Positions 1,832 through 64,000 of a stretch of DNA of 64,000 bases are shown here, one piece after another. How positions within the stretch are numbered: the stretch's first letter is position 1; the number at the start of each line of letters is the position of its first letter. Made by a program: the position numbers and the translations under genes. Source of the stretch: Nitrospirales bacterium (GTDB lineage Bacteria > Nitrospirota > Nitrospiria > Nitrospirales > UBA8639); contig JALDRK010000004.1 of the NCBI GenBank assembly GCA_031315915.1, positions 62,001-126,000 of the forward strand, written 5' to 3'. Below the pieces are notes generated by a model. The model had not been told where the DNA came from. It saw nothing but the letters and a program-made list of their open reading frames with translations, and did no database searches.

Positions 1832-3642
1832 TTCATTCGACGATTTAGCTCATACGCCGCGCTGATTAAGGCCAAATGAGTCAGAGCCTGAGGAAAATTT
1901 CCAAGTTGTGCCATTCCGGGACCAATGGCTTCACCAAATATTCCGAGATGATTGGCATGTCCCAGCATCTTATCAAACAGAAAATGAGCTTTTTGGACAT
2001 CACCGGCGCGCGACAAACACTCGATATACCAAAATGTACACATCGAAAAACTTCCGTGTTCCTTCGGAAGCTCATCCAAATCTTGGTTCTTTTCCCTAAA
2101 GCGATAGACAAGCGAATCTTCCACAAGATGGGATTCAATGGCCTGTAAGGTCAACAACCATCGAGGATCCATTGGACTGACAAATTTCACCAATGGCATC
2201 ATCAAACTCGAGGCATCCAAAATTTGACTGCCTTTACATTGAACGAAGCATTTTCGCTCCGGATTCCAAAAATCCTGCATCACCTCCTGATAAATCTCGT
2301 CCCGAACTCGCTCCCACCGCCCGATGGCTCCGGGAAACGACCGTTGTTTCGCCAATCGGATACCCCGATCGATCGCCACCCAACAGAACAATCTCGAATA
2401 CAGGAATTCCCGAGGTTGCCCTCGAAATTCCCATACACCGTGATCCTCGACTTGCCAGTGATCACAGACCCAATCAATAAGGCGAGTGAGATTTTTCCAT
2501 AGATCGTACGAGATGAGTCTTCCATGTTTATTCGACAAGTAGACGGAATCCATGAGAGCCCCTAACCCATCGAGTTGTAGCTGTTGATGGGCGGCATTGC
2601 CGATCCTGACCGGCCCCGACCCTTTATACCCTTTCAAATGTGAAAGGATTCGTTCAGTCAGATCCCTCTCCCTCTCTGCCTCAATCCCGTACATGACCTG
2701 AAGCGGACTCTGACCATCCAGATGAGTAAAACGGGCTTCTACCCATTCGTTAAACGCAATAGCCTCTTTGGTAAATCCCAGGCGTAAAAACGCATAAACG
2801 GTAAAGGCCGCATCCCGTATCCAGGTATAACGATAATCCCAATTTCTTGTCCCCCCGATGGTTTCCGGAAGCCCAAATGTGGGCGAAGCCACAATAGCCC
2901 CGGTGGGACGATAAGTCAGCATTTTGAGGATCAAGGCGGAACGATGGATAGTCTCCCGCCAGCGACCTTCATACTGGCAAGCAGTCAGCCAGTTTTGCCA
3001 AAAATTCATAGTGGCTTTAAAGACTTCGGATACCTCTTCGGGGTTGGAAGCGGCGGCCTGATCGTTATTGCCGGCATCTTCCAGAATGAAAGTGGCATGC
3101 TCGTCGGCTTTCAGAGAAAATTCCGCAATCGCATCCCCTTCTCTCACCTGCAAAGGGATAGACGCATGCAGCCGTAGTCGGGTTTCATCGGGGCCACGGG
3201 AAACAAAAATCACTTCCTTCGCATGATGTTTTAACAGGTCATGCCCGGCCCTGGCATAATTGAACCGCGGGGCACACCGCATCCTATACTGCAAGTGACC
3301 TCTCACCGTTTTCACCCGCCGTACCACATTATGTATTTGGCCGGCTTCCTCAACCGGCATAAAATCCGAGATTTCCCCCATGCCTTCATCAGCATACAAT
3401 CGGGTTAACAGAATATTGGTGTCGGTAAGATATAATTGCTTGCGCTGCCCATTATCATGTGCCGCATGGATGGAAAACTCTCCCCCGTTCTCGTCATCCA
3501 GCAACGAAGCAAAAACTGTGGGGGAATCAAAACGGGGGAAACACATGAAATCGATCGAACCGTTCATTCCCACCAAGGCCGCCGTATGCAAATCACCGAT
3601 GACCCCATGCTGTTCGATAGGAAGGTACGCCATCAATGACAT
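1828..3642 (-). CDS. Glycoside hydrolase family 15 protein (glucoamylase/trehalase-like)
   Basis: A 604-residue cytoplasmic protein with no signal peptide. Residues 1-200 form the beta-rich N-terminal domain seen in bacterial GH15 enzymes. Residues from about 215 to the end match the (alpha/alpha)6 barrel, with the hallmark GGTRNWDYRYTWIRDAAF at 263-280 and a late acidic catalytic region (ELPKEHGSFSMCTFWYIEC). The family hydrolyses alpha-glucosides from the non-reducing end; single-domain bacterial members include glucoamylases and trehalases, so the substrate is open. It is the first gene of a coupled operon with a 54-aa ORF and a DksA-like protein. A role in glycogen or trehalose turnover under stress is inference. 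Confidence 0.9.
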   Translation of the reverse strand: MSLMAYLPIEQHGVIGDLHTAALVGMNGSIDFMCFPRFDSPTVFASLLDDENGGEFSIHAAHDNGQRKQLYLTDTNILLTRLYADEGMGEISDFMPVEEAGQIHNVVRRVKTVRGHLQYRMRCAPRFNYARAGHDLLKHHAKEVIFVSRGPDETRLRLHASIPLQVREGDAIAEFSLKADEHATFILEDAGNNDQAAASNPEEVSEVFKATMNFWQNWLTACQYEGRWRETIHRSALILKMLTYRPTGAIVASPTFGLPETIGGTRNWDYRYTWIRDAAFTVYAFLRLGFTKEAIAFNEWVEARFTHLDGQSPLQVMYGIEAERERDLTERILSHLKGYKGSGPVRIGNAAHQQLQLDGLGALMDSVYLSNKHGRLISYDLWKNLTRLIDWVCDHWQVEDHGVWEFRGQPREFLYSRLFCWVAIDRGIRLAKQRSFPGAIGRWERVRDEIYQEVMQDFWNPERKCFVQCKGSQILDASSLMMPLVKFVSPMDPRWLLTLQAIESHLVEDSLVYRFREKNQDLDELPKEHGSFSMCTFWYIECLSRAGDVQKAHFLFDKMLGHANHLGIFGEAIGPGMAQLGNFPQALTHLALISAAYELNRRMK

Positions 3643-3702
3643 CCGTTTCTTTCGTTCAGAAAGGTTCCCACCTGGAAAGATCGCTACCGCGACCTTGCAC
3701 TG

Positions 3703-3792
3703 TTAAAATGGATTCTTGAAAGAGAAAGATGTGACCGGCCTGTTTTCCAGAAAAGGATCGATGGCATGGTGCTCATGGGCATAGCGACGCAT
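3703..3792 (-). CDS. Possible 29-aa peptide upstream of GH15
   Basis: The frame ATG(3792)-TAA encodes 29 residues, His-rich at the N-terminus (MRRYAHEHHAIDPFL), with a strong ribosome binding site (GAGGTG, 5 nt upstream). It lies between the 170-aa gene and GH15 on the same strand. It could be a small protein or a leader peptide. The call rests on the binding site and position only. Confidence 0.3.
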   Translation of the reverse strand: MRRYAHEHHAIDPFLENRPVTSFSFKNPF

Positions 3793-3846
3793 TTCGTCAC
3801 CTCGCGTCTATGACGGATTTCGACACTTCTTTTCTCAGCCTCACAT

Positions 3847-4359
3847 CTACAGTCGCTTTAGCTTTCTGACCTCTTTGACCAATTTGACGGCTATGGCAGG
3901 CTCACCTTCTTCCGCCATAACCTTGGCCGCTTCTAAAATCATCGCCGATTGGGCACGATGGAGGTCGTGTGATGCTTTAGAATCTGGAAGCCCACTCGAA
4001 CGGTCCGAACGGTCCAATCGTTTTTCTACATCGGCAGCTTCAAGAGCTTCCTCAAAACGACCTTCATGCACCAACCCTCGTATTTCTTTCGCAATAAGTT
4101 GAGGGAATTGCGACAGAGGTTTGGATTCCACATCGTCATCCACACGAATGTCATCCCATGTCGTCAGATCCATTGGGTGAATGGTCGGTGGATGATCCTG
4201 AAATCCCATCACAATCCTTCCTTGTTGTTTTTCTTTTACGATCCAATTCAACGCTTTTAATGCCTGATCCACTAATTGATCCGGCTCAACCCCTAGAATG
4301 GTTTGCAATCGCTGAAACTCTGCCCATTGTGTTTGAGAGACCCGAACGAAGACTTTCAT
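3847..4359 (-). CDS. Hypothetical protein, 170 aa
   Basis: No family recognised. The N-terminal 50 residues (MKVFVRVSQTQWAEFQRL, then LVDQALKALNWI) resemble the short strand-helix-helix pattern of ribbon-helix-helix DNA-binding proteins. The middle is acidic and the C-terminal 70 residues are predicted helical (EEALEAADVEKRL, EEGEPAIAVKLVKEVRKL), like a short helical-repeat tail. It has no signal peptide or membrane segment. The start ATG is preceded by GGAAGCGGG. A regulator is possible, unproven. Confidence 0.65.
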   Translation of the reverse strand: MKVFVRVSQTQWAEFQRLQTILGVEPDQLVDQALKALNWIVKEKQQGRIVMGFQDHPPTIHPMDLTTWDDIRVDDDVESKPLSQFPQLIAKEIRGLVHEGRFEEALEAADVEKRLDRSDRSSGLPDSKASHDLHRAQSAMILEAAKVMAEEGEPAIAVKLVKEVRKLKRL

Positions 4360-4797
4360 GCTATATCCCGCTTCCTACCCTTTTCCTTGTGATCACAGTC
4401 TGGATCTCATATCAATGGGGCAGTGTACCACGATTCTATTTTTTCCCAACTAGAAAAAACCCTGGTTTTCAACTCTCTAGGCATAGGCAAACTTCTGTGT
4501 GTATGCTTCCCGGCACTCAAATCATCATTCTCATAAAGAGGGCTGGCTTGGAATGATTGTCATCCCGGCAAACAAGGCATGGCTATGAGTATCTGCCATA
4601 ACTTCACAAGCAGGTGACCAACAAAAGAAAAATCGCAGGCGCGCGTATGGCGGTGCAGGACGAAAGAATTAGAATTCAGCCTAACGATTGAATCATCTGA
4701 TAAAATAGAAAAGAAGTAAGAGATGACGAGGATAGCGCCGCTTTCGCGGCGACTCCATCAAAAACGGAAGTTATCAATCTTCACCAAGAGGGATATC
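4360..4797. other. Divergent intergenic region
   Basis: This lies between the minus-strand 170-aa gene and the plus-strand coiled-coil gene. No convincing ORF is seen. A small perfect hairpin, CGCCGC-TTTC-GCGGCG (4736-4751), sits about 45 nt before the start of the next gene and would be in its mRNA leader. Confidence 0.5.
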
Positions 4798-58292: not shown

Positions 58293-58955
58293 CTAGCCGG
58301 AAGCCTGATGCGAATAACGGGACGACCGTGTGGACAGCACATAAGTCAGGACAATCGCGAGAAACGCTCCGATCAGCGCGACGGTCATATCTTTCTGAGC
58401 ATCCCATTCATCTCCCTGTGTCCCCAGATAGGCCTCTCCCAATTCCGGACGGACCAGAAGAACAACCCACGATTCAATAATTTCAAAGAATCCACTCAGG
58501 GCCAAAATGCCGCTAATTGGCAGATAATAAGCCCAGAACCCATGAATTTTTACGTGGCGCAGGAAAATTTCACGTAACGGATACGCCAAGAGCAAGCCGA
58601 ATGAAAAATGGGCGATGCGGTCGAAATGATTACGCTCCAATCCCCACCATTCCTGAATCCAAAAACCGAAAGGAACTTTTGAATACGTATAATGAGCTCC
58701 GATGGCGTGAAGAGTCATAAACACGGTAAAGAGAACGTACGAAAGATCCGAAAACGGGTATTTCCGGTAGGTCACAAGCAAAACCATGACCAGGCCGATG
58801 GCCAGGATATTTTCGAGAAACCAATCGTGGCGGTCGAGCGGCTCAATGGCAAGAAATATCCATATCGCCAGATACCAGGCGATCAGGCCGTGAAGTAGGC
58901 GCTGCTCGTGAAACGGTTTCTGATTAGTGGCGGTCGCCGCAGTGGTGAGAAGCAT
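58293..58955 (-). CDS. DUF2238 integral membrane protein, copy 2
   Basis: 220 residues with about six membrane helices. Family motifs: FTVFMTLHAIGAHYTYSKVP; GLERNHFDRIAHFSFGLL; LGTQGDEWDAQKDM. The DUF2238 (YjdF-like) family has no known function. Its start overlaps the end of copy 1 by 32 nt. The two copies are clearly tandem duplicates that have since diverged. Confidence 0.88.
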   Translation of the reverse strand: MLLTTAATATNQKPFHEQRLLHGLIAWYLAIWIFLAIEPLDRHDWFLENILAIGLVMVLLVTYRKYPFSDLSYVLFTVFMTLHAIGAHYTYSKVPFGFWIQEWWGLERNHFDRIAHFSFGLLLAYPLREIFLRHVKIHGFWAYYLPISGILALSGFFEIIESWVVLLVRPELGEAYLGTQGDEWDAQKDMTVALIGAFLAIVLTYVLSTRSSRYSHQASG

Positions 58956-59589
58956 GAGGAAGGCCCACCGACCTTTCCGGGGAACATGTCAGACGAAACC
59001 CCGACAATTTCCGTGAACAGATGACGATGAGCAACCAGATCAGGACGCCATAGAACGTTGCAGCCATATCCTTCTGAGCATCCCAGATATCTCCCTGGGC
59101 GCCAAGATAGGCGAGACCCAATTCCGGATGCACAATCCGGGAGACCCATGACTCAAGCACTTCCCACATCCCCCCTAACCCCACGAGGGTCAGCACAACC
59201 ATCCCGGATCGGACCCATGAGGCCATGCCGGCGATTGTCCTGAAGAGTTCCTGCAACGGGTGGGCAAATAATAAACCGAAGCAAAAATGAACAATGCGGT
59301 CAAAATGATTGCGGGGCAATGCCAACCATTCCTCCAACCAGAGCCCCAAAGGCACCTGAGCATAGGTATAGTGGGAGCCAATCGTATGTAACGTCAGAAA
59401 GACCGTGATGAACACATAGGAGGCGAGTGAGAAAGACCATCGCCGATGCGTGAGAGTTAACAGACCGACAAAAAGCAGAGGGAGAATATTGGCAAAGGCC
59501 CAACTTTGAGGATCATGAGGAGCCACCCCCATAAAAAAAAAGAACCCGATATACCACAGTAACAAACCGGTCATGACCACGTGCTTCAC
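58924..59589 (-). CDS. DUF2238 integral membrane protein, copy 1
   Basis: 221 residues. The start was chosen at GTG 59589 because of a GGGAGG box 6 nt upstream; earlier in-frame ATGs lack one. Motifs match copy 2: FLTLHTIGSHYTYAQVP; ALPRNHFDRIVHFCFGLL; LGAQGDIWDAQKDM. A hydrophilic tail overlaps the start of copy 2. The 235 bases upstream (59590-59824) look empty. Confidence 0.88.
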   Translation of the reverse strand: MKHVVMTGLLLWYIGFFFFMGVAPHDPQSWAFANILPLLFVGLLTLTHRRWSFSLASYVFITVFLTLHTIGSHYTYAQVPLGLWLEEWLALPRNHFDRIVHFCFGLLFAHPLQELFRTIAGMASWVRSGMVVLTLVGLGGMWEVLESWVSRIVHPELGLAYLGAQGDIWDAQKDMAATFYGVLIWLLIVICSRKLSGFRLTCSPERSVGLPHASHHCGDRH

Positions 59590-59824
59590 GTTCTTCCTCC
59601 CTGAAGTCAATAATACCGACATACTCCACTGGCCAATATATTGTCTCTCAGGAATCGGGGAATCACAAGTCATTGGGAGAAAAACCCTTGTTATGACCTG
59701 GAGTTACGGGTCTCGCATCTAACGGCATGGACGAAATAATCTCCTCGATTTGTGATAAGAGTTTCCCGCATACCGTGATGAATCTACTCAACGATTTCAA
59801 CCCATTTCAGGAACATTAATGATC

Positions 59825-61173: not shown

Positions 61174-61287
61174 ATGCCGATCAATTTCCCTAGGTGCCTT
61201 TATTGTCAAAACCGAATGCAAAGAAAAGACTGCGATGACTGCAATCGACCGAGATGTCAGAGAGCAAGGGATAAAAGCAAGCTATAA
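61174..61287 (+). CDS. Possible 37-aa zinc-ribbon peptide
   Basis: MPINFPRCLYCQNRMQRKDC, then DDCNRPRCQRARDKSKL. A CxxC...CxxC arrangement plus one more Cys, and a basic tail, are typical of a short zinc ribbon. No clear ribosome binding site. It ends 6 nt inside the DUF72 gene on the other strand. Possibly a fragment of a larger gene. The remainder of 60972-61173 is empty. Confidence 0.4.
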   Translation: MPINFPRCLYCQNRMQRKDCDDCNRPRCQRARDKSKL

Positions 61288-62000
61288 CTTTCTTATAAGA
61301 TTTTTTGCATCGTGCGGCGCACACGCTTTCTGATCGTTGTCGAAATAACAAAACACGTCACGCCCGTTATCTTTCCATTTTTTAAATTTCTTCGCGTATG
61401 CGTTTAAACGGCGACCGTCATACGATCCCTCATAGGCTTTTTCCGGGCCGTGCAGGCGGATATACACAAAATCCGCCGTTAGCTTCTCGGGCGAGCGGTA
61501 GTCTTTGTAATCGTAAATGCAAAGCGCAACGTTATGGTTCTTTAGGATTTGGTAAATCTCTTCTGTCAACCAGCTTTTATCACGGAATTCAAACGTATAG
61601 CGATGGCCGGATGGCAGAACCTTGATGAAATTTTTCAGCCTTTTAGAATTCACATGCCAGTTTGGTGGCAATTGAAACAAAACAGGGCCTGTTTTGTTGC
61701 CAAATGGTTTGATAGCTTTAAAAATTTTTCGGTACTGTCCCCCGGATCTTTTAGCTTTTTATGATGCGTTGCATAGCGGCTGGCTTTTATCGAAAAGAGA
61801 AAGTTTTTAGGCGTATTTTTCCGCCAGGTATCAACGCTATTCTTTGATGGCAGGCTGTAGAAGCTATTGTTGAGTTCCGTGGCTTTAAAACTGTCTGCAT
61901 AGATTTCAAGAAATTCCGAACTGCCTATATTTTTCGGATAGAAGGATCCTTTCCATCCTTCATAACTCCAACCGGATGTGCCAACATAGATCTGTGCCAT
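61282..62000 (-). pseudogene. DUF72 gene broken by a one-base frameshift
   Basis: The N-terminal frame (start 62000, MAQIYVGTSGWSYEGWKGSF) and the C-terminal frame (FEFRDKSWLTEEIYQIL; YIRLHGPEKAYEGSY; DVFCYFDNDQKACAPHDA) together make a normal DUF72 protein of about 239 residues. The frames meet at 61691-61696. There, one A appears lost from an A-run on the coding strand, in the middle of the conserved GPVLFQLPP motif. Either a recent mutation or a sequencing error. Codon use is more A/T-rich than its neighbours, which may indicate transfer. Confidence 0.8.
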
Positions 62001-62497
62001 TATTACATCTGTTTAGCACTAAGACATTTACAATCGAAAACTGATCGAGGTTTCCAGGTTATCCAATCATTTTATTCCCAGCCTCATGACCGCAAAGCGA
62101 ATCGGATATGCCGATAGACAGCCATCATATTTCCTTCTACCTTCGAAGGGATTAAAAGGTTTCTCTCATCACTCATCATCACTATTATCCGACTGTCTGA
62201 ATTAACGTGGAACTGTAATGAACCCTTGAGAAATGACGTCAGACAAAAGCGGATCCATAGCCTCACTGCAGCCGCATGAGATACCCTCTAATCAGTCTCC
62301 CCTTGTTATCCAGGTGCTTCTCCATGCCTCTCTCCATTGCCCAAGCAGTACGTCCCTCCCTTGACAAAATTCCGGCATAATGTAACCATTGGATACATTG
62401 CGCCAGACAGCACGATTCAGACATATCAATCGTGAACGAGATTCACGCATGCGACATGATTCAAGTGGATGCATGACTTGAGATCTGATGGGTTTCC
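62001..62497. other. Intergenic region upstream of imuB
   Basis: It holds TTGACA at 62361-62366 and the 19-bp palindrome. Minus-strand frames (62084-62266) lack ribosome binding sites and are not called. No imuA or lexA gene is present. Confidence 0.45.
62380..62398. promoter_or_regulatory. Candidate SOS (LexA-type) operator
   Basis: ATGTAACCATTGGATACAT: eight of nine base pairs are symmetrical around a central T (arms ATGTA-n-CCA / TGG-n-TACAT). TTGACA, a good -35, lies 14 nt upstream, so the palindrome covers the expected -10 position, ideal for repression. It is about 100 nt before imuB. No LexA consensus for this group is known to me, so the regulator is inferred from the target genes. 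Confidence 0.55.
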
Positions 62498-63715
62498 ATG
62501 AACCGTCACATTGTCTGCTTTACCATTCCCACGTTCCAAGTCGCTCTGGCTCGCCTTGAAGAGGCTTCTCTGACAACGCGGCCGGTTGCCGTTGCCCTTT
62601 CATCAAACCCGCGATCCGTGATTACGGAGGCGTCGAAAGAAGCCCGGCGCGATGGCATCGTGACGAATATGTCCGTTGCCCAGGCTCGTCGACTCTGCCC
62701 TTCTCTCCATGTACGCTCGCCTCGTCCCGATCGCATACGCCAAGCGAATCGCGCACTTTTACGTGTGGTAGAGCGGTTTACGCCAATCTGGGAATCGGTT
62801 CAGCCGGGACATTTCTATCTTGATTTGACAGGCACCACACGGTTGTTCGGCCCGGCGTGCGACACGGCCATGCGAATGCGGCAAGAGATCGCCCGGCAAT
62901 ATCGATTGAGTGGCATGGCGGGGATAGGAAATAGCAAGTTGGTCTCGTACATGGCCTCAACATTGGTGGAGCCTCCTCAACTCTGTGACATTCGGTCGGG
63001 TTCAGAGGAAGCCTTTCTCGCGCCCCTCCCGGTCGATACGCTCCCGCTGACGGCAGCCTCCCGCAAGACCATCTTGATGAGACTGGATGATGTGAATGTC
63101 CGAACCTTAGGAGAGATCGCGCGAATACCGCTCGCCGACCTCGTGCCGGTATTGGGACAGCATGCCACTCTGCTGCATGCCTGGGCCCGCGGTATCGATC
63201 CATCACGGGTACTCCCTCCGGCGAGACAGCCCGGCGTTGAAGCCACGCTGAATCTGGAGCCCGGCGAACTTGATAGCAATCGGCTCCCCAGCCTGCTGTA
63301 TCGTCTTCTCGAATACATTTGCCGTGAGTTACGCCGTCAGCAACGGCAATGTCATGAACTGACAATCCGCTTGCAGTATGGTGACAACGTCGAAGTCGAG
63401 CACTCTCAGCCTGTTCATCCGGGAACCTTGTGGGAAGTCGATCTGATGCCCTGTGTTTCTCGGCTGTTTGTTCGATGTTTTCGGAGGCGCATTCGCGTGC
63501 GAACGCTGACCGTACGGGCAGGACATCCTTTGCCGGTGGCCGAACAGCTCACGCTCTTTGGATGGGACAATCAAGCGTCATCGATGGCCTCACGACCAGC
63601 CTGTCGCCTGGCGCTTGCCATGGATACCCTTCGTGTCCGTTTTGGACATGGAGTCATCGGGTGGGGAAAGGCACAACCGGATGCAGGCGTTCGTTCATCT
63701 TCACGTACATTCTAA
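62498..63715 (+). CDS. imuB: ImuB-like inactive Y-family polymerase
   Basis: 405 residues. It keeps the Y-family fold: palm/fingers (about 1-150; EASKEARRDGIVTNMSVAQARR), thumb with GIGNSKLVSYMAS and helix-hairpin-helix (LGEIARIPLADLVPVLG), and a little-finger domain. The catalytic acids are gone: IVCFTIPTFQVAL replaces the D-x-D motif, and SVQPGHFYLDLTGT lacks the D-E pair. This is typical of ImuB, which acts as a non-catalytic partner of DnaE2 in translesion mutagenesis. It lacks the long C-terminal extension of many ImuB proteins. It overlaps the polymerase gene by 35 nt. Confidence 0.8.
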   Translation: MNRHIVCFTIPTFQVALARLEEASLTTRPVAVALSSNPRSVITEASKEARRDGIVTNMSVAQARRLCPSLHVRSPRPDRIRQANRALLRVVERFTPIWESVQPGHFYLDLTGTTRLFGPACDTAMRMRQEIARQYRLSGMAGIGNSKLVSYMASTLVEPPQLCDIRSGSEEAFLAPLPVDTLPLTAASRKTILMRLDDVNVRTLGEIARIPLADLVPVLGQHATLLHAWARGIDPSRVLPPARQPGVEATLNLEPGELDSNRLPSLLYRLLEYICRELRRQQRQCHELTIRLQYGDNVEVEHSQPVHPGTLWEVDLMPCVSRLFVRCFRRRIRVRTLTVRAGHPLPVAEQLTLFGWDNQASSMASRPACRLALAMDTLRVRFGHGVIGWGKAQPDAGVRSSSRTF

Positions 63716-64000
63716 CTATTCACCGATGGCCGGGGTCTCCTCGTTGGAGGACCTCTGCGAGACCGCGCAGGCACAAGGGTCCGATACCCTGGCCTTAACG
63801 GATACGAACGGATTGTATGGCGCGATGCGATTCGTAGATGTCGCAACGCGCTTCGGACTCAAGCCTATCCTTGGGGCGGAACTCGTTCACAAACAACATC
63901 GTGCAGTGCTCTTGGTTAAAACGACAGACGGCTATGACAATCTCTGTCGTCTGCTCTCAGCCCGTCATTGTGACAGCGCGTTTGATATGCTCTCGGCCGT
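63681..64000 (+). CDS. dnaE2: DnaE-type polymerase (probable DnaE2), N-terminal part
   Basis: It starts at ATG 63681 inside imuB (GGAAAGG upstream) and is open to the window edge. The first 107 residues form a PHP domain: FVHLHVHSNYSPMAGVSSLE with HxH, then LALTDTNGLYGAMRFVDVAT and LKPILGAELVH. TDTNG replaces the usual TDHxG, so one PHP metal ligand is lost. Pairing with imuB makes the error-prone DnaE2 role likely, though DnaE1-type cannot be excluded from this fragment. Confidence 0.8.
   Translation, partial: MQAFVHLHVHSNYSPMAGVSSLEDLCETAQAQGSDTLALTDTNGLYGAMRFVDVATRFGLKPILGAELVHKQHRAVLLVKTTDGYDNLCRLLSARHCDSAFDMLSA

Follow-up and report, generated by a model that had tools for sequence, protein, structure and literature searches.

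The DNA analysed here (the window) is a stretch of 64,000 nucleotides from a genome of the Nitrospirales. At its end it contains imuB and the 5′ part of dnaE2, preceded by a TTGACA hexamer and a 19 bp palindrome, the candidate operator (Table 1).

Table 1. Coordinates of features upstream of and within the imuB-dnaE2 region of the window
Feature	Position	Strand	Basis
Putative −35 hexamer TTGACA	62361..62366	+	Sequence; TTGAC[A/T] kept in related promoters
Operator, 19 bp palindrome ATGTAACCA-T-TGGATACAT	62380..62398	.	Conserved at unlinked imuB and at XRE-S24 repressor starts
Possible −10 element AACCAT inside the operator, TGT upstream	62384..62389	+	Inference; 17-nt spacer to TTGACA
imuB, inactive Y-family polymerase homologue, 405 aa	62498..63715	+	PF00817 and PF11799
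ImuB QLTLF motif	63545..63559	+	Read from sequence
dnaE2, 5′ part (1053 aa in all, runs past the window)	63681..64000	+	Full frame in L044

Alignment of ImuB with 4ir1 showed other residues in place of the Pol IV catalytic acids (D8 to T, D10 to P, and D103/E104 to G/H). The protein also carries a QLTLF sequence, which we take to be a beta-clamp-binding motif (Table 1). The dnaE2 product contains PHP, DNA_pol3_alpha, finger and HHH_6 domains; its length and context are those of a DnaE2, but it scored below the cut-offs of both PRK05672 (error-prone) and PRK05673. The 35-nt overlap between the two genes indicates that they are probably co-transcribed. The preliminary description of this DNA had noted that imuA is missing, and our searches agree: there is no ImuA gene upstream of imuB in the window, where the neighbouring gene, on the opposite strand, is a disrupted DUF72 gene, and none of 60 relatives contained a protein scoring above the NF033429 cut-off. 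The weak matches to NF033429 were not accepted as ImuA: every one fell below the cut-off, and their lengths fit RecA and RadA. By these profile searches, the absence of imuA is a trait of the lineage and not a local one. The DUF72 gene (window 61282-62000, minus strand) is split into two overlapping frames of 116 and 132 aa, matching profile positions 1-88 and 86-216, and the frameshift means that it is a pseudogene, unless the assembly is wrong here. The window also contains a tandem duplication of a DUF2238 membrane protein gene, the two copies lying side by side with overlapping ends (58293-58955 and 58924-59673, minus strand).

The arms of the palindrome are complementary at eight of nine positions. 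A consensus scan reported no obvious sigma-70 −10 element downstream of TTGACA. The best fit is AACCAT, which was not among the reported elements and matches TATAAT weakly; if it serves as the −10 element, the operator would cover it. Taken by itself, a 19 bp palindrome of such quality is not rare and is barely above chance. Thus, the window contains 14 palindromes of equal quality, versus about 8 in shuffled sequences, and the chance of finding one in a 497-nt upstream region of the same composition is P = about 0.06. The exact 19-mer occurs once in this genome (genome-wide pattern search), and at up to three mismatches there were 13 forward matches versus 8 for a reversed-pattern control. 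With such near-chance mismatch counts, a search of this genome alone would have looked like a refutation.

A different picture was obtained when related genomes were compared. The operator was present at all eight imuB cassettes of the Nitrospirales that are unlinked to a repressor gene and have readable upstream DNA, with scores of 16-18/19. Besides that of the window, these are G004, G011, G015, G019, G022, L178 and L094; a ninth unlinked imuB (L034), in which the contig edge lies just after an apparent repressor C-terminus, stands outside this count. In the genus g5 (G004, G011, G015, G019 and G022) imuB stands alone and is preceded by TTGAC[A/T] and then by a site close to ATGYAACCATTGGWTRCAT, the 19-mer of G011 being identical to that of the window. 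For six imuB upstream regions, two bins cover the operator, with mean pairwise identities of 0.95 and 0.73; the surrounding bins gave about 0.21-0.49. All six aligned regions contain TTGAC[A/T] 5′ of the operator, with a spacer of 17-18 nt to a −10-like element. Conservation across species, and not single-sequence statistics, is what identifies the palindrome as a real control element, and on this comparison it is certainly functional across genomes. The proposal that TTGACA and a palindromic operator precede the imuB-dnaE pair was correct, and so was the statement that the site does not conform to CTG-N10-CAG or to GAAC-N4-GTTC: the Nitrospirales operator is ATGYAACCATTGGNTRCAT.

Elsewhere in the Nitrospirales, many genomes have imuB immediately downstream of a gene matching the LexA model. 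The same palindrome, often in perfect form (ATGTAACCATTGGTTACAT), is present at this repressor gene, where it overlaps the start codon or adjoins it. None of the 23 imuB genes located behind a repressor gene has an operator of its own (best score 14/19). In g5 genomes the repressor gene is located elsewhere on the chromosome and also carries the palindrome. Altogether, 69 distinct repressor genes with 55% identity or more were examined, and each is preceded by a palindrome at a distance of 17, 20 or 35 nt. In 66 of them it scored 15-19/19 and overlaps or adjoins the start codon, while the other three have variants scoring 13-16/19. TTGAC[A/T] precedes the operator in nearly all of these genes, and the start codon is usually formed by the last three operator bases or lies just past the operator. 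A scan of all GTDB species for the exact site accounted for all 34 loci with Nitrospir*-type titles: 30 are at a repressor start (among them L147, where the sequence read ends within the gene), three precede imuB and one precedes a small ORF (L175). Among the 46 other named loci only L171 has a repressor or imuB gene adjoining the site. This locus, from a genome labelled Proteobacteria (Centralia_MAG_52), contains a repressor-imuB-dnaE2 operon with a perfect operator (2749-4503), and its presence under the label of another phylum is due to either horizontal transfer or mis-binning. In a sample of the phylum, 77 of the 78 genomes matched by the repressor belong to one order.

Three imuB-linked repressor paralogues differ from this pattern in that the operator core is ATGTGACATTATGTCACAT or ATGTAACATTTTGTTACAT and the recognition helix is altered as well, from TTR..RRIP to CTRR..VPIP or VTRQ..MPIP. 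They belong to genus g12 (L021, L026 and L028), where they constitute a second repressor with changed operator and helix. Judged from these paired sequence changes, the g12 paralogue is a natural change of specificity.

The repressor consists of an HTH_3 domain (PF01381) and an S24 peptidase domain (PF00717, E = 4e-28), and the winged-helix DNA-binding domain of LexA (PF01726) is absent from it. Throughout 33 sequences, the cleavage pair A66-G67 and the catalytic dyad S100/K137 do not vary. An AlphaFold model (mean pLDDT 87) shows four helices at the N-terminus and lacks a wing. Among PDB structures it is most similar to LexA, UmuD and lambda CI, and its N-terminal part is matched at 1.6 Å by two XRE controller proteins, 2b5a and 4yba. 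The homology of the S24 part to LexA is strong. By domain content and predicted fold the protein is a non-canonical LexA, because it combines a CI/XRE-type helix-turn-helix with a LexA-like S24 peptidase in which Ala-Gly, Ser and Lys are intact. The operator positions place both its own gene and the error-prone polymerase genes under its predicted control.

We consider it highly probable that the palindrome is the operator of this Nitrospirales family of non-canonical LexA proteins, which would silence imuB-dnaE2 until DNA is damaged. A repressor dimer bound at the operator would occupy the −10 region of the promoter and keep imuB-dnaE2 off; an operator that covers the −10-like AACCAT, 17-18 nt from TTGACA, implies that the bound dimer would block the promoter. 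When DNA is damaged, RecA filaments would induce the repressor to cut itself at the invariant Ala-Gly bond and the dimer would fall apart, so that ImuB and DnaE2 are made and carry out error-prone lesion bypass. Through the same operator at its start codon the repressor would also repress its own gene. Many genomes have repressor, imuB and dnaE2 as one operon, and in the genus of the window and the related g5 the cassette is split, with imuB having its own copy of the operator. The location of the start codon at the end of the operator suggests that the repressor transcript from that promoter would be nearly leaderless. The lambda PRM promoter likewise produces a nearly leaderless mRNA.

What speaks against this explanation is that TIGR00498, single-protein, PF00717 and profile searches of the genome of the window (91.6% complete) found neither type of repressor. 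In addition, genes that flank the repressor in g5 (encoding a 133-aa protein and YdcF-like, KdsC-like and ManC-like proteins) are contiguous here, in the middle of contig C30, and no repressor gene lies beside them; the g5 neighbourhood is thus partly conserved, with the neighbours of one side remaining. The sole S24 protein of this genome (C2:17411, 214 aa) was rejected as the repressor on account of its different helix-turn-helix, the lack of a visible Ala-Gly and an unrelated upstream palindrome. It is an XRE-S24 protein of another kind (G000:C2:17411-17719; L091:1480-2124, minus strand), apparently devoid of Ala-Gly and with its own inverted repeat, GAGTCATGTCTCAC and partner. The repressor of this genome is either encoded in the unassembled ~8% or lost, and active regulation here depends on the former. 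The operator might accordingly be a relic, with imuB-dnaE2 now unregulated or under other control, and the repressor is also missing in many g4 genomes, most of which lack imuB too. Yet the operator is intact and identical to that of imuB in G011 although the flanks have diverged to background, which argues against an old loss, and at 91.6% completeness a single gene may be missing by chance. We regard a relic as possible but somewhat doubtful.

The regulon of the repressor seems to be very small. The genomes examined, G004, G011 and G015 among them, contain one to three sites at up to two mismatches, and none was found at up to three mismatches at the recA and dinB loci read, a threshold that weak sites could escape; the two matches encountered in this check have four mismatches each and are inside coding DNA. 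Other two-mismatch sites in relatives (L246-L250) were discarded as targets, being in coding DNA or without a consistent target. The few sites, together with their absence at recA and dinB, indicate that the regulon would comprise the repressor gene and imuB-dnaE2, without recA, which is unusual for a LexA protein and counts against the proposed explanation. In one genus a 118-aa protein is added to the apparent regulon (L175:5611-5964; also L095, L112, L205 and L253-L256). It is present in four of the 60 relatives, all of that genus, has no Pfam match and ends in a clamp-like QLRMF/QLRIF sequence, and in L175, L095 and L112 its gene starts at the same operator. This protein is possibly a third member of the regulon, perhaps similar to the stand-alone ImuB-C of Deinococcus.

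That recA and other SOS genes seem to be outside the regulon would also fit a site recognised by some cellular XRE protein unresponsive to DNA damage, such as an oxidative-stress or growth-phase regulator, in which case the cassette would not belong to the SOS response. XRE regulators of dnaE2 outside LexA do exist, DdiA of Myxococcus being an example (PMC12288472). However, the gene that carries the operator encodes an S24 protein with strong LexA homology in which all cleavage residues are invariant, and we therefore judge a damage-independent regulator to be unlikely. It is less probable still, and in our view very improbable, that a canonical winged-helix LexA has its box here and controls a full SOS regulon. 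Although a palindrome in repressor position before a classic SOS target is what such a box would look like, the genome of the window has no TIGR00498 match, the winged-helix LexA genes of relatives have GAACGATCGTTC upstream instead, and the small number of sites and the results for recA and dinB given above do not fit a full regulon. Moreover, G004, G011 and G015 (98-100% complete) encode the XRE-S24 protein and no other LexA-type protein. The suggestion of the preliminary description that the palindrome could be the LexA box of this lineage, to be checked by searching near lexA and recA, thus stands in part: in relatives the site is present at a LexA-like repressor gene, but this CI/XRE-S24 protein is not LexA proper, no site lies near recA or dinB in the genomes examined, the palindrome is not a general SOS box, and no lexA was found in the genome of the window. 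Finally, despite the modest statistics of the single sequence, a palindrome that arose by chance can practically be dismissed given its conservation and gene association over dozens of genomes.

Takeover of the SOS response by CI-type repressors has been reported twice, for Streptococcaceae and Bacteroidetes (PMC8565304); Nitrospirota are not mentioned in that study (Sanchez-Osuna et al. 2021). The Nitrospirales repressor resembles the non-canonical LexA of Bacteroidetes described there in its S24 C-terminus, its CI-type helix-turn-helix, a palindrome of fixed spacing and its association with error-prone polymerase genes. It differs in its operator, ATGTAACCATTGGTTACAT versus CTAA-N5-TTAG or GGA-N5-TTC in Bacteroidetes, and in that it belongs to another phylum, has a far smaller regulon without recA and often forms an operon with imuB-dnaE2. 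In the lexA-imuY-dnaE2 operon of Deinococcus deserti, a repressor, an inactive Y-family protein and DnaE2 are likewise encoded together without imuA, and operon induction and LexA cleavage are RecA-dependent (PMC8072749). Unlike the Nitrospirales, D. deserti has an extra small ImuB-C gene, and its ImuY is only weakly similar to ImuB (PMC8072749). The lexA-imuA-imuB-dnaE2 cassettes of Proteobacteria (Abella 2004, Erill 2006; cited in PMC3919608) also have an imuB and dnaE2 unit under an S24 repressor, in linked and split versions, whereas the Nitrospirales cassettes lack ImuA and have a CI-type repressor and a new operator. The architecture of an XRE/CI helix-turn-helix combined with S24 autocleavage is shared with the phage repressors lambda CI and HdiR, but the Nitrospirales repressor is chromosomal, nearly confined to one order and a predicted regulator of a host mutagenesis cassette. 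The literature searched contained no LexA box for Nitrospira or other nitrite oxidisers.

If correct, the proposed control of imuB-dnaE2 would constitute a further CI-type takeover of the SOS response, in another phylum and with a clear operator. Beyond this, the chances are about even that the SOS response of the Nitrospirales has been reduced to one switch, in which a captured phage-type repressor controls only itself and imuB-dnaE2, recA and the other repair genes lie outside, and repressor and operator have diverged in specificity where they were duplicated. Within the family, cassette linkage, operator and recognition helix vary in concert, which provides dozens of natural variants. The case also suggests that control of error-prone polymerases is the part of the SOS response that is retained when the rest goes, and a single 19-mer would provide a handle on mutagenesis in nitrite oxidisers.
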